From the NCBI RefSeq assembly GCF_004346865.1, contig NZ_SMGR01000004.1, positions 1 through 64,000 of the forward strand: a DNA stretch of 64,000 bases. The letters are read 5' to 3'. A model generated the notes under the pieces. The model saw only the letters and a list, made by a program, of their open reading frames with translations, did not search any database and was not told the DNA's origin. Each line of letters starts with the position of its first letter. Within the stretch, counting starts at the first letter, position 1. Below, one piece after another: positions 47,320 through 52,532 of the stretch. Made by a program: the position numbers and the translations under genes. The stretch is from Shimia isoporae (GTDB lineage: Bacteria > Pseudomonadota > Alphaproteobacteria > Rhodobacterales > Rhodobacteraceae).

Positions 47320-47403
47320 TATTGAATTCCCAATGCCAAGTTGATTGATAGGTGTCAGAGACCTAACAATTGCACGTCTGAACTCAAGGGTACAACACGC
47401 CGC

Positions 47404-48777
47404 ATGACTGATTTCTCCACCGAACTCCTGTCCAGCGACCGCCGCAGCAACTGGGTCCGCTTGCGCACAATCATTCTGGTACGCTGGATTGCCATATTCG
47501 GACAGGTCGCAGCGCTGCTAGTCTCCCAGTTTGCCTTCGGTCTCGAAATTGAATACGGGCTTTGCTACCTCGCCGTTGGCGTATCGGTCATCGGCAATCT
47601 CATCGCGATATTTGTGTTCCCGGAAAACAAACTGCTCAGCCAGCCCGAGAACATGTTCATGATCCTGTTTGACATTTTGCAGCTGGGATTCCTGCTGTTC
47701 CTGACCGGTGGTCTGAACAACCCGTTTTCCTTTTTGGTGGTTGGTCCGGTTATCGTCTCCGCGCTGGTGTTGTCCGTTCGATCGTCTTTGGTGGTTGCTT
47801 CTCTTGCGATTGTGATGGTCACTCTGCTGCTGAATTTCTATATGCCGCTACGCACCGAAGAATTTTTCATTCTCCGTATTCCGAATGTGTTCCTCTATGG
47901 AAACTGGTGCGCGATCGTCATCGCAATTCTGTTCTCTTCGCTCTATTCGCGCCGTGTTGTCACCGAGATGTCTTCAATGGCAGATGCTCTGGCTGCCACC
48001 CAAATGGCTCTGGCTCGAGAGCAAAAGCTGACCGATCTCGGCGGCGTTGTCGCCGCCGCCGCGCATGAATTGGGAACACCGCTGGCGACCATCAAGCTGA
48101 CAAGTTCGGAACTGATGGAGGAACTCGACGGACAACCAGAACTGCGAGAAGACGCGGCCCTGATCCGCGAACAGGCCGACAGATGCCGCGATATTCTCAG
48201 ATCCATGGGACGAGCAGGGAAGGATGATCTACACATGCGCCGCGCTCCACTTTCAACCGTGGTGGAAGAGGCAGCCGAACCGCACATGGAAAGAGGGAAG
48301 GCAATTTATTTCGAGCATCTTGATCTTATTGACGGGCCAGAGATTCCGCGCCAACCCGAGATCGTGCATGGTTTGCGCAATCTGATCCAGAATGCCGTCG
48401 ACTTTGCACACTCCACCGTTTGGGTGGAAACCGAATGGGATGAGGAGCGGGTTTTCGTTCGGATCATGGACGATGGGGAGGGTTTCCCACCGCATTTGAT
48501 CGGCAGGATCGGCGATCCTTTTATTCGTCGCCGTCGCAGCGAGCCTGAAAAAACAGCAAGACCGGGATACGAAGGTATGGGCCTTGGATTGTTCATTGCA
48601 AAAACTTTGCTGGAACGCTCCGGTGCTGAATTGAGTTTTGCCAACGGAACCCGTGAGGAACAACATCACGCCGAAGACGGATTGGGCGCCATTGTCGAAG
48701 TCGTGTGGCCCGCGTCAAATTTCGCCCCGGCGGCCACCACCGAACCTCTTGGACAGAACCCGCGTCACGAAGCTTAG
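47404..48777 (+). CDS. regB: Redox sensor histidine kinase RegB/ActS/PrrB
   Basis: The ATG at 47404 is chosen because it gives the family opening MTDFSTELLSSDRR. The 457-residue protein has six membrane segments (about 25 to 185) with the quinone-site heptad GGLNNPF at 102 to 108. The H-box AAAAHELGTPLATIK follows with His221, then the redox cysteine Cys261 in DRCRDIL, and an ATPase domain with GMGLGLFIAKTLL. Both key positions lie at a constant offset from the Rhodobacter residues (His225 and Cys265). It senses the quinone pool or cysteine redox state and phosphorylates RegA. Confidence 0.95.
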   Translation: MTDFSTELLSSDRRSNWVRLRTIILVRWIAIFGQVAALLVSQFAFGLEIEYGLCYLAVGVSVIGNLIAIFVFPENKLLSQPENMFMILFDILQLGFLLFLTGGLNNPFSFLVVGPVIVSALVLSVRSSLVVASLAIVMVTLLLNFYMPLRTEEFFILRIPNVFLYGNWCAIVIAILFSSLYSRRVVTEMSSMADALAATQMALAREQKLTDLGGVVAAAAHELGTPLATIKLTSSELMEELDGQPELREDAALIREQADRCRDILRSMGRAGKDDLHMRRAPLSTVVEEAAEPHMERGKAIYFEHLDLIDGPEIPRQPEIVHGLRNLIQNAVDFAHSTVWVETEWDEERVFVRIMDDGEGFPPHLIGRIGDPFIRRRRSEPEKTARPGYEGMGLGLFIAKTLLERSGAELSFANGTREEQHHAEDGLGAIVEVVWPASNFAPAATTEPLGQNPRHEA

Positions 48778-48799
48778 GCCGATCACAACCTTGCGAGCG

Positions 48800-48815
48800 T
48801 TAACACTCTGTTAAC
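48800..48815 (+). promoter_or_regulatory. Perfect CtrA-type box (TTAA-N7-TTAAC)
   Basis: TTAA-CACTCTG-TTAAC matches the CtrA consensus TTAA(N7)TTAA(C). It lies 50 bases before the start of the PAS-only gene at 48865 and after the regB stop. In Rhodobacteraceae CtrA controls motility, gene-transfer agents and its own phosphorelay genes. Confidence 0.65.
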
Positions 48816-48864
48816 CTTCTTCCCACGATCCTGAAGTCAGCACTTCACGATTGCGGGAAATGCT

Positions 48865-50346
48865 ATGTTTGATTCGAGTATTGATTTTCTTCTTGTCGCT
48901 CTGGGTATGTCAGCCGTTTTCCTGACCCTCGGGTTTTTGACACTGTTCCTGGGACCGCGACCCGCCAAAGCGGCGACCGTGTCTGAGGCCGTTTGCATCT
49001 ATCGCAATGGCATTCTGATTGAGGCCAACCCTGAAGGTATGCGTCAATTGGCGGTCCATGGCGGCGGCTCCGACACGAATTGGCGCGCGCTACGTAGTAT
49101 GCTTTCTGATCGCTTCCCGGACTTCCCTCAAAATCAAGGCACGTCCCAAGCGCAGGACATTACCATTCTTGCACCAACAGATAGCCGCGACACATCCTTT
49201 GTGACCATTGACCAAACAAATGACACCGCCCGCGTGACATTCTCTCTGCAGCATCCAGAAAAAACCGACACACGCCGGATTGAGACCGATATCTCCTTGC
49301 GTGCGCCGTACCCCATTTGGACTTGCGATGCACAAGGTTCAATTTCTTGGTGCAATGACGCTTACCGAGACCTTGCCGCGCGCATGGGATACGGAAACCA
49401 AACCCTTCCTCAACTGTTCGAAACAGCCAGAAATCAGGACGGCGCCACGCCTTTCAGAACCGGGATCGCGATGCCTGATGGTTTAACCCTTTGGTTTGAT
49501 GTAGCGCGGATCTCCATTGGTTCCAAAACTGTGTTTTTTGCCTCCGACGCAAACACTGTTGTGTATGCAGAGATGGCGCAGCGCAACATTGTTCAAACTC
49601 TGTCAAAAACATTCTCGCAGCTTCCAACAGGCTTGGCGGTTTTTGACCGTGGCCGAAAACTCATCCTGTTCAATCCACCACTCGCAACCTTCACCGGCCT
49701 GACACCGCCGTTCCTCTCAGCAACACCCCATATCACGGATTTTTTTGACCAACTTCGCGAAAAAAGAATTGCCCCCCAACCCAAGAGTTCCAAACCCTGG
49801 CAGAAACATGTCGCTGACATCATTCACGCGACAGAAGCAGGGCAATTCAACGAGTCGTGGGAGCTGCCCGACGGCAAAACCTATCGCGTCTGCGGCCGTC
49901 CTCTACAAGACGGCGCCATCGCTCTCATGATAGACGACATTACTGCCGAGATGACGCTCACGCGTCGGTTTAGGTCAGAAATCGAAGTTGCCCATGCAGC
50001 CATCGACGCATTGGACGATCCCGTGGCGCTATTTTCACGCTCCGGCGATCATCTCCTCTGCAATACATCCTACAGAAATTTCTGGAAGGTCGATCCCGAC
50101 TCCACTTTCGCTGATTATACCATTCATGATGCCACCACCCTTTGGGCTGGCGAGATCTGCGACTCGCCAGCCTGGAGAGCCTTTGAGGAAGCCGCGCTCA
50201 CCGACAGCCCGCGTCAGCTCTGGACGGGCACTCTTCCGCTTCGTAGATTTGGAGTAATGCAGGCAACTCTCACTCCCATTTCCGGAGGAGCCACACTGGT
50301 CACGTTTCGCCGAGCGGCCGAAGTAAAAATCACACAACCTGCATGA
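48865..50346 (+). CDS. PAS-domain-only protein, DivL-like
   Basis: The 493-residue protein has an N-terminal membrane helix (about 7 to 33) and three PAS-like domains (about 45 to 160, 165 to 280 and 370 to 485). The middle parts read RAPYPIWTCDAQGSISWCNDAYRDLA, LPTGLAVFDRGRKLILFNPPLATFTGL and ALDDPVALFSRSGDHLLCNTSYRNFW. No H-box or ATPase domain follows, so it cannot be an active kinase. In Rhodobacter capsulatus a PAS protein named DivL acts in the CtrA pathway. A CtrA box before this gene supports that comparison, but the identity is not proven. Confidence 0.65.
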   Translation: MFDSSIDFLLVALGMSAVFLTLGFLTLFLGPRPAKAATVSEAVCIYRNGILIEANPEGMRQLAVHGGGSDTNWRALRSMLSDRFPDFPQNQGTSQAQDITILAPTDSRDTSFVTIDQTNDTARVTFSLQHPEKTDTRRIETDISLRAPYPIWTCDAQGSISWCNDAYRDLAARMGYGNQTLPQLFETARNQDGATPFRTGIAMPDGLTLWFDVARISIGSKTVFFASDANTVVYAEMAQRNIVQTLSKTFSQLPTGLAVFDRGRKLILFNPPLATFTGLTPPFLSATPHITDFFDQLREKRIAPQPKSSKPWQKHVADIIHATEAGQFNESWELPDGKTYRVCGRPLQDGAIALMIDDITAEMTLTRRFRSEIEVAHAAIDALDDPVALFSRSGDHLLCNTSYRNFWKVDPDSTFADYTIHDATTLWAGEICDSPAWRAFEEAALTDSPRQLWTGTLPLRRFGVMQATLTPISGGATLVTFRRAAEVKITQPA

Positions 50347-50384
50347 CAGGTTGCGGGCAGGTGTCACCAATGTAAATTGACGCA

Positions 50385-50849
50385 ATGACGTCGATCTCAC
50401 TTTCTTCTGCGGATGAAACAGCCGCTTTGGCGGTGCGCCTTGGAGCGCACCTCAAACCAGGGGATGTTGTGTTGCTCGAAGGGGACATCGGTGCAGGGAA
50501 AACACACTTTGCACGCAGCATGATTCAATCACTGCTCGATGTGGTCGAAGACGTTCCGTCCCCTACATTCACGTTGGTTCAGGTATACGAAACAACGGAA
50601 TGCGAAATTTGGCATGCCGACCTCTATCGGCTCACGTCTCCGGACGAAGTGGTCGAGCTGGGTCTGGTTGATGCATTTGATGAAGCTATCTGTCTGGTAG
50701 AATGGCCAGACCGACTTGCCGAGTTGAAACCCGAAGATGCCTTGACGGTGCAATTCCAACTTGGCCACGAGGCAGGCACCCGTTTACTCAACTTGTTCAG
50801 CCCCTCGCCGCGCTGGAAGACGTTGATCAAGGCGCTTGTCGATGCCTGA
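50385..50849 (+). CDS. tsaE: tRNA t6A biosynthesis ATPase TsaE
   Basis: The 154-residue ATPase has the Walker A loop LEGDIGAGKTHFAR (P-loop at about 33 to 40), PTFTLVQVYE, and WHADLYRL. It cycles ATP in the TsaBDE complex that puts threonylcarbamoyl on A37 of tRNAs. Its stop overlaps the start of the amgK-like gene by 8 bases. Confidence 0.95.
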   Translation: MTSISLSSADETAALAVRLGAHLKPGDVVLLEGDIGAGKTHFARSMIQSLLDVVEDVPSPTFTLVQVYETTECEIWHADLYRLTSPDEVVELGLVDAFDEAICLVEWPDRLAELKPEDALTVQFQLGHEAGTRLLNLFSPSPRWKTLIKALVDA

Positions 50850-51864
50850 CCGTTCCGATCTGCTGGCACAATTCGTTGAACAAACCGACTGGCGGGATGC
50901 CAGTCGCACTATTGTTGCAGGAGACGCCTCCAACAGACGCTACGACCGATTAAAGAAACCAAACGGTGCCACGTCGATATTAATGGACGCGCCACCGGAA
51001 AAAGGCGAAGACGTGCGCCCGTTTATCGAAATCGCACAATATCTCCGCGACGTCGGAGTATCTGCTCCTGATATCCTCGAAGCAGATGTTTCACGAGGAT
51101 TTCTCATCATCGAAGATCTGGGCGACGCTCTGTTTGCCAAACTGATGGCGACCGAGCCAAACAGGGAGTTAGAACTGTATCAGGCCGCGACGGACGTCCT
51201 TTTGCACCTCCACAGCAACACGCCACCAGATACTCTGGAACCGTTTGACGCATCGACAATGGCGTCAATGATAGACCTCGCTTTCAGCTGGTACACTCAC
51301 GGCGCGGACAGTTCCTGGGCGGACGCCTTGGAGGAGCTCAATGATGTCTTTCCAAGAATTTTACAGGAGCATGTCGCGCCGCCATCGGTTTTCATGCACC
51401 GCGACTATCATGTGGAAAACCTTCTTTGGCTACCCGACCGCGCTGGCACCGCCCGCGTTGGAGTGATTGACTTTCAGGACGCAAAGATTGCCCATCCCGC
51501 CTATGATCTCGTCTCACTGTTGCAGGACGCTCGACGAGACGTTCCCAAAGATGTCGAGGCAGTCCTATTGTCCCGCTATATCTCTCGATCCGGACAGGAC
51601 CCCGAAGACTTTTTAGCCGCTTATCATGTTTTAGGCGCACAGAGAAACCTGCGCATCCTTGGTGTTTTCGCGCGGTTGTGTATGCATTTTGGGAAACCAC
51701 ACTACTTGCAATTCATTCCTCGCGTTTACAGTCTTTTGATGCGTGACCTGGACCATCCGGCCCTTGTTCCTGTCGCTGGACTTTTGCGTCGGACTTTGCC
51801 GGATCCCACACCTCAAACTCTGAAAAAACTGAAAGAAAAATGCGCGACTTTCCCAATGCCGTAA
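50842..51864 (+). CDS. amgK: Aminoglycoside-phosphotransferase-fold kinase, AmgK-type
   Basis: The ATG at 50842 overlaps tsaE. The 340-residue protein is a protein-kinase-like sugar kinase: GDASNRRYDRL (nucleotide loop), the catalytic HRDYHVENLLW and the metal-binding DFQDAKIAHPAYDLVSLLQDARR. In Pseudomonas the AmgK kinase phosphorylates the anomeric carbon of MurNAc and GlcNAc to recycle peptidoglycan sugars. The uridylyltransferase MurU follows, with a 25-base overlap, which supports the assignment. Confidence 0.85.
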   Translation: MPDRSDLLAQFVEQTDWRDASRTIVAGDASNRRYDRLKKPNGATSILMDAPPEKGEDVRPFIEIAQYLRDVGVSAPDILEADVSRGFLIIEDLGDALFAKLMATEPNRELELYQAATDVLLHLHSNTPPDTLEPFDASTMASMIDLAFSWYTHGADSSWADALEELNDVFPRILQEHVAPPSVFMHRDYHVENLLWLPDRAGTARVGVIDFQDAKIAHPAYDLVSLLQDARRDVPKDVEAVLLSRYISRSGQDPEDFLAAYHVLGAQRNLRILGVFARLCMHFGKPHYLQFIPRVYSLLMRDLDHPALVPVAGLLRRTLPDPTPQTLKKLKEKCATFPMP

Positions 51865-52532
51865 TGCTCTTTGCAGCCGGATTCGGCACCCGTATGGGAG
51901 CCTTGACCGCAAACACACCGAAACCGTTGGTGAAGGTGGCGGGAAAGGCGTTAATCGATCACACCTTAGACCTCGCGCGCAAAGTGGATCCAGCTACCAT
52001 CGTTGCCAACACACATTATTTGTCCAACCAGATCGAACGCCACTTAGAGGGCACCAGTGTGGTGGTTTCCAACGAAACACCAAACATTCTCGAAACCGGC
52101 GGAGGACTGCGCCAAGCTTTGCCTTTGCTTGATTCCAATCCGGTTTTTACCTCTAACACAGACGCCATCTGGCATGGCCCAAACCCCTTCCAAGTTGCAC
52201 TCGATGCCTGGTACCCCGATGTCATGGACGCTTTGCTTGTCTGCGTGCCGCCAGGTTCCGCACTAGGCCATAAAGGGCAGGGGGACTTTACTCTTGCCGA
52301 GAACGGTCTCCTGAAACGCGGCCCAGGGGTGATTTATGGTGGCGTACAAATTCTGCGGACGGACGGCCTATTTGATATTGAACAAGCGGCCTTCTCGCTC
52401 AACCGTCTTTGGGATCGAATACTTGCCAACGGCCGCCTCTTCGGAGTCTCCTATTCCGGAAAGTGGTGTGATGTGGGATCCCCCGAAGGCATCATACTGG
52501 CCGAAAACCTTTTGAGCGAAACCGATGTTTGA
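51840..52532 (+). CDS. murU: Nucleotidyltransferase, MurU-type
   Basis: The 230-residue enzyme has the sugar-1-phosphate nucleotidyltransferase core: MLFAAGFGTRMGALTANTPKPLVKVAGKALIDHTLD, then VFTSNTDAIW (metal site) and LFGVSYSGKWCDVGSPEG. With AmgK it would make UDP-MurNAc from MurNAc-1-phosphate, bypassing fosfomycin-sensitive steps. It overlaps amgK by 25 bases and addB by 8 bases, so it is part of the same translated string. Confidence 0.85.
   Translation: MRDFPNAVMLFAAGFGTRMGALTANTPKPLVKVAGKALIDHTLDLARKVDPATIVANTHYLSNQIERHLEGTSVVVSNETPNILETGGGLRQALPLLDSNPVFTSNTDAIWHGPNPFQVALDAWYPDVMDALLVCVPPGSALGHKGQGDFTLAENGLLKRGPGVIYGGVQILRTDGLFDIEQAAFSLNRLWDRILANGRLFGVSYSGKWCDVGSPEGIILAENLLSETDV

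Follow-up and report, generated by a model that had tools for sequence, protein, structure and literature searches.

The regB–divL region of Shimia isoporae carries a CtrA-type box directly upstream of a gene for a protein built of PAS domains, which raises the question whether the CtrA phosphorelay acts back on one of its own components. The region was studied within a stretch of 64 kb (hereafter the window) of a genome that comprises 4.23 Mb in 9 contigs. The idea of a CtrA–divL feedback is already known, having been in print since 2010; the contribution of the present analysis lies in how deep the footprint is (145 of 170 gaps in a non-random sample, with a single spacing) and in one clean evolutionary loss.

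The CtrA-type box and its genomic context

The box, GTTAACACTCTGTTAAC, is located at 48799–48815 and reads GTTAAC-ACTCT-GTTAAC, thereby matching the 9-base CtrA consensus on both strands. It includes TTAA-CACTCTG-TTAAC at 48800–48815, the sequence that a preliminary description of the window had placed 50 bases before the start of the gene, and which is indeed present there, with 49 bases between the end of the box and the divL ATG (48865) and 21 bases between the regB stop and the box. Two features of CtrA sites were thus found together, namely TTAA-N7-TTAA(C) with its fixed 7-base spacing and a position within promoter range upstream of a start. A consensus scan of the plus strand identified no sigma-70-type promoter.

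TTAA-N7-TTAA occurs only once in the window, as this box, and at least one copy was obtained in 14 of 100 shuffles of the whole window, so that the presence of the box is by itself unremarkable. TTAA-N7-TTAAC has two matches in the window, one per strand, while two or more were found in none of the 100 shuffles, and the stretch 48775–48900 contained the motif in 10 of 5000 dinucleotide shuffles. Genome-wide, TTAA-N7-TTAAC gave 25 hits at 18 distinct sites in 4.23 Mb, compared to 30 hits for the motif read backwards, a weak control because its dinucleotides differ from those of the motif. As the motif is no commoner than this control, single sites in the source genome are not self-evident CtrA targets, and the case for the divL box rests on its conservation.

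The gene upstream of the box is annotated as the sensor kinase gene regB (47341–48777, plus strand; NCBIfam NF045988, 750.5 bits), whose true start is probably the ATG at 47404, since residue 22 is the first that the NCBIfam match covers; senC and regA accompany it on the opposite strand. As divL starts 87 bases past the end of regB on the same strand, the regB promoter may also read divL, and read-through may be an additional source of divL transcript. Downstream of divL lies tsaE (50385–50849, plus strand), identified by profile matches and as a conserved neighbour. An inverted repeat of 10 pairs spans the divL stop (50333–50355), with a T-run on the minus strand only. The gene after tsaE resembles the sugar kinase AmgK (NF045698, 287 bits, under the cut-off of 500) and overlaps a nucleotidyltransferase gene (window 50836–52532), in the order of the AmgK–MurU pair of cell-wall recycling.

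Identity and architecture of the short DivL

The gene behind the box (48865–50346, plus strand, ATG start) encodes a protein of 493 amino acids. None of the NCBIfam models matches it, and phmmer retrieved no PDB sequence with E values up to 1; the protein was thus placed via its homologs rather than via a solved DivL structure. Homologs were detected in 54 of the 60 genomes of one survey and in 266 of the 295 family genomes of another, the source genome being included in both. Gene order is conserved as well, regB preceding divL in 193 of 198 loci and tsaE following it on the same strand in 134 of 138.

Outside the family the homologs are found in longer open frames, mostly of 560–880 amino acids. 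HisKA and HATPase domains were present in all three long homologs scanned, and the phospho-acceptor histidine is replaced by tyrosine in seven of the eight that were read and by glycine in the remaining one (L236). Tyrosine in place of the phospho-acceptor histidine is the hallmark of DivL (Tyr550 in Caulobacter). The window protein shares 17–22% identity with the eight long homologs, and in the alignment the short form ends with the last PAS domain of the long DivL, just ahead of the helix by which the long form passes into its kinase-like part. The window protein therefore lacks what defines a full-length DivL, a kinase-like part with tyrosine for histidine, and combines homology to the PAS part of long DivL with an end before the kinase part, a family-wide distribution and conserved neighbours. 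Homology and gene order identify it as the short DivL of Rhodobacterales, and the DivL-like identity initially suggested is supported by the homologs and by the regB and tsaE neighbours. Upstream of the long divL of eight genomes from other families (338–500 bases each) no exact CtrA box was found, the best site being one with a single mismatch in one of the eight.

Three genomes listed under the same family (G025, G028 and G032) carry their homologs in long frames, of 716, 812 and 772 amino acids respectively, which perhaps correspond to the long DivL reported for some Rhodobacterales in the osp paper (PMC9430884). Another genome has two separate divL matches (G033:C3:2932465-2933921), in frames of 346 and 286 amino acids, and this divL may be split. 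Finally, the source genome contains a second, weak PAS match (G000:C1:2334249-2334716; E 6.4e-5) in a frame of 1027 amino acids that also has kinase and receiver matches, perhaps a second divL-like gene like that of Dinoroseobacter shibae, for which two divL-like genes have been described in the excerpted literature.

The AlphaFold model of the window DivL (19-row alignment, mean pLDDT 81.8, pTM 0.37) contains an N-terminal helix followed by four PAS-like units, whose relative placement should not be read from the model given the low pTM. The helix (residues 5–28; 48877–48948), hydrophobic by eye, is a probable membrane anchor. PAS-like unit 1 (residues 40–128; 48982–49248) is tentative, as it appears in the model alone, has no Pfam match and falls outside the listed fold matches. 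Unit 2 (residues 136–228; 49270–49548) is accompanied by a Pfam PAS match at the cut-off (147–170) and by few fold matches. The third PAS domain with its leading helix (residues 230–358; 49552–49938) has Pfam matches above the cut-off (PAS_7, 251–363; PAS_8, 249–288) as well as fold matches, and the fourth with its leading helix (residues 360–483; 49942–50313) is indicated by a PAS_4 match just below the cut-off (381–480), by fold matches and by the alignment with long DivL; all these features are encoded on the plus strand. Pfam detected neither a kinase domain nor HisKA or HATPase in the 493 residues, in agreement with the kinase-less protein described at the outset. The same description had counted one helix and three PAS domains; the single helix is reproduced by the model, whereas the window DivL tentatively has four PAS-like units rather than three. 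Foldseek matched PAS proteins, and the VIA-align rows listed mostly span residues 248–493, a few starting from about 130. The top matches (PpsR, MmoS, FixL, DosP and LOV proteins) are general PAS relatives, and at the level of the model the fold comparison shows only the C-terminal two thirds of the protein to be of PAS type.

Conservation of the box in orthologous regB–divL gaps

Among 198 divL loci, 193 had a regB match, and removal of 23 duplicates left 170 distinct regB–divL gaps, that of the window included. Five loci without a detected regB were left out (L038, L118, L170, L190 and L197), one of which (L038) still holds an exact box. Eighty of the loci are the best 80 of 495 candidates among the matches listed, and a further 60 slices were hand-picked from lower-ranked genera, yielding 57 distinct usable gaps, so the set is not a random sample.

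Conservation in orthologous loci had been set beforehand as one of the checks on which the proposal could fail, and the box withstood it. An exact TTAA-N7-TTAA was present in 145 of the 170 distinct gaps of this non-random sample, 141 of them also having the flanking C or G, while other spacings (1–6 and 8–20) were found 0–6 times each. The gaps of the hand-picked genera contained the exact box in 52 of 57 cases, and the divL locus of P. italicus also holds it. When only the first 120 nt were considered, the observed number was 144 of 170, compared to 0.6 on average and at most 3 in 200 rounds of shuffled gaps. The distance from the end of the box to the likely start had a median of 50 bases in the 100 loci where it could be measured. 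In a profile anchored on the box (143 loci, chosen for holding all eight half-site bases; first T of the box numbered 0), the spacer is nearly free, the box is followed by C in 135 loci and by a further C in 103, and behind these lies an A/T-rich stretch with weaker preferences for A at +27 (78), A at +28 (84) and T at +32 (89). Based on this single-spacing footprint, divL is a well-supported predicted target of CtrA in the family. A link to GcrA/CcrM through the GANTC at 48871–48875, inside the start of divL, was also considered and rejected, GANTC being present in 46 of the 170 gaps compared to 53 expected from shuffles.

Other genes of the CtrA pathway

CtrA is encoded in the source genome alongside the box (NF045991, 431.3 bits, above the cut-off), as is ChpT (90.8 bits). 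At cckA the source genome likewise carries an exact box, TTAAGGTGCGTTTAAC, with 48 bases separating it from the likely GTG start. This cckA box was exact in 24 of 25 Shimia genomes, with other spacings found 0 or 1 times each; in the remaining genome (G008) no exact box was present in the 1500 bases before the match, which began at residue 178, the start being projected. Upstream of ctrA, the best site within 200 bases had one mismatch in all 25 Shimia genomes and was never exact. For chpT of the source genome, the 600 bases preceding the domain match contain no exact box, the best site there having one mismatch (position 1042, L045).

Among the other genome-wide sites, a full TTAA-N7-TTAAC (L055; G000:C1:1259252-1259267) is followed after 42 bases by a gene whose product looks like a membrane protein with a GGDEF-like end, its family assigned by eye. 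CtrA is linked with cyclic di-GMP, and a site before a diguanylate-cyclase-like gene fits this link. Five of the 18 TTAA-N7-TTAAC sites (L001, L004, L009, L052 and L053) lie near genes judged by eye to be RTX-like, with glycine/aspartate-rich repeats, or of the Hint type, which may point to a group of secreted proteins linked to CtrA.

A Shimia clade without the divL box

No exact box is present in 25 of the 170 gaps, among them the gaps of 11 Shimia genomes out of the 24 besides the source genome. One of these (G015) has a divL box with one mismatch and was scored as box-bearing in the tree, while the box is absent from ten of the 25 Shimia genomes (G003, G006, G009, G010, G011, G016, G018, G019, G021 and G024), the nearest approach to it being a one-mismatch site in G018. 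All ten have ctrA above the family cut-off and an exact cckA box. In a RegB tree of 29 rows these ten genomes form one side of a branch with a support of 100/100, and as the tree needs a single change, one loss of CtrA control over divL is probable for this clade. Seven of the ten (loci L017, L019, L021, L023, L025, L026 and L027) share, by eye, a common block before divL, around ATTAC(G/A)(T/C)ACTCC, which is perhaps a replacement promoter.

We consider the chances about even that this ten-genome clade has swapped CtrA control of divL for a different conserved promoter, with ctrA and the cckA box both retained. A Shimia clade that combines ctrA and the cckA box with the loss of the divL box is possibly new. 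If the swap is true, a single natural event has opened one of two loops that feed back in parallel on a master regulator, and the genomes of this clade would be an evolutionary test of the purpose of the DivL loop, for whose role they offer a ready comparison.

Proposed regulation of divL and alternative explanations

In the proposed mechanism the box would be a CtrA operator in the promoter of divL, at which CtrA~P would most likely bind both TTAA half-sites near −35 and raise divL transcription. The second half-site would overlap a −35 element, and in the osp paper (PMC9430884) CtrA-activated promoters of Caulobacter are described with CtrA at this position. CtrA~P would raise both divL and cckA, and DivL, with its PAS domains presumably serving as signal input, would promote the kinase activity of CckA, closing a positive feedback. 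We regard it as quite likely that the kinase-less short DivL and its CtrA operator box together place such a positive feedback on the CtrA phosphorelay; CtrA binding at 48799–48815, and activation rather than repression, are predicted accompaniments.

A positive loop is the best reading because divL transcripts are lower in mutants of relatives and because DivL is reported to promote CtrA phosphorylation in R. capsulatus. According to the excerpted text of Wang 2014 (PMC4046655), divL of D. shibae (Dshi_3433) has a predicted CtrA site and its transcript is lower in ctrA, cckA and chpT mutants, and that of a 2025 Phaeobacter study (PMC12363192) reports divL1, matched to the window divL by name, to be repressed in ctrA and cckA mutants. 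In R. capsulatus, DivL promotes CtrA phosphorylation through CckA, as summarized in a 2022 paper (PMC9143464) citing Westbye 2018. The auto-feedback of CtrA on its own phosphorelay, as first suggested for this locus, thus gains support as a prediction from the conservation of the box and from published transcripts in relatives.

A different sign of the loop appears unlikely. CtrA can act as a repressor as well as an activator, and at a full box near −35 it could stand in the way of the polymerase, so that CtrA bound at the box might repress divL in a negative loop; however, the divL transcript goes down, not up, in the ctrA, cckA and chpT mutants of D. shibae, as does that of divL1 in the ctrA and cckA mutants of P. 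inhibens, both being relatives of the species studied here.

We also think it improbable that the box works and DivL reports to a partner other than CckA, for instance the adjoining RegB. The kinase-like part is missing in its entirety and regB lies just upstream in nearly all loci, which would suit such a partner, but the reported action of R. capsulatus DivL runs via CckA, and the regB transcript of that species is unchanged on loss of phosphorelay genes.

Symmetric operators are usual for dimeric regulators and the window copy is symmetric, which would allow the GTTAAC pair to be the operator of another dimeric regulator, with CtrA uninvolved. This explanation is very improbable, as the symmetric form GTTAA-N7-TTAAC occurs in just 60 of the 170 gaps compared to 137 for TTAA-N7-TTAAC, and the motif recurs before cckA in 24 of the 25 Shimia genomes and, with one mismatch, before ctrA in all 25, as described above. 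That the box arose by chance and divL is merely read through from regB would agree with the window shuffles and the closeness of regB, but is barely credible in view of a single spacing in 145 of 170 orthologous gaps. The activating CtrA operator hence remains the preferred reading.

Comparison with known systems

For the cluster B Rhodobacterales, Brilli 2010 (PMC2877005) predicted that CtrA controls itself, CckA and DivL, and the excerpted text describes DivL there as devoid of a kinase domain and a feedback as theoretically created. The system described here is alike in operator, target gene, loss of the kinase domain and inferred feedback; it differs in that the earlier work was a prediction on the genomes of 2010, whereas here one Shimia locus and 169 other gaps show the footprint together with its exceptions. 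The wiring rule of 2010, a feedback of the CtrA phosphorelay on cckA and a kinase-less divL in Rhodobacterales, is thereby confirmed on many more loci.

Dshi_3433 of D. shibae resembles the window divL in its predicted CtrA site and in encoding PAS domains only, but belongs to another genus and was matched by gene name. A 2019 prediction for D. shibae (82.5% score, PMC6473078) names, in the excerpted text, ctrA and cckA as CtrA targets and not divL, unlike that of 2014. The divL of Rhodobacter capsulatus (rcc00042; Westbye 2018, in excerpt) likewise encodes a kinase-less PAS protein acting on the CtrA phosphorelay, and a short DivL has been described for Rhodobacterales by Vega-Baray 2022 (PMC9430884, in excerpt). 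Caulobacter DivL, as excerpted, shares with the short DivL its PAS domains and its action on CckA; it differs in having DivK as a partner and a pseudokinase part, which the window DivL lacks.

The closest parallel in circuitry is osp of Rhodobacter sphaeroides, which according to the excerpted text of the same 2022 paper (PMC9430884) encodes a regulator of CckA and is preceded by a CtrA-type site 54 bp upstream of its start, so that a loop fed by CtrA is formed, as is proposed for divL. The two would differ in sign: Osp inhibits CckA, giving a negative loop, whereas DivL is thought to promote CckA, giving a positive one.
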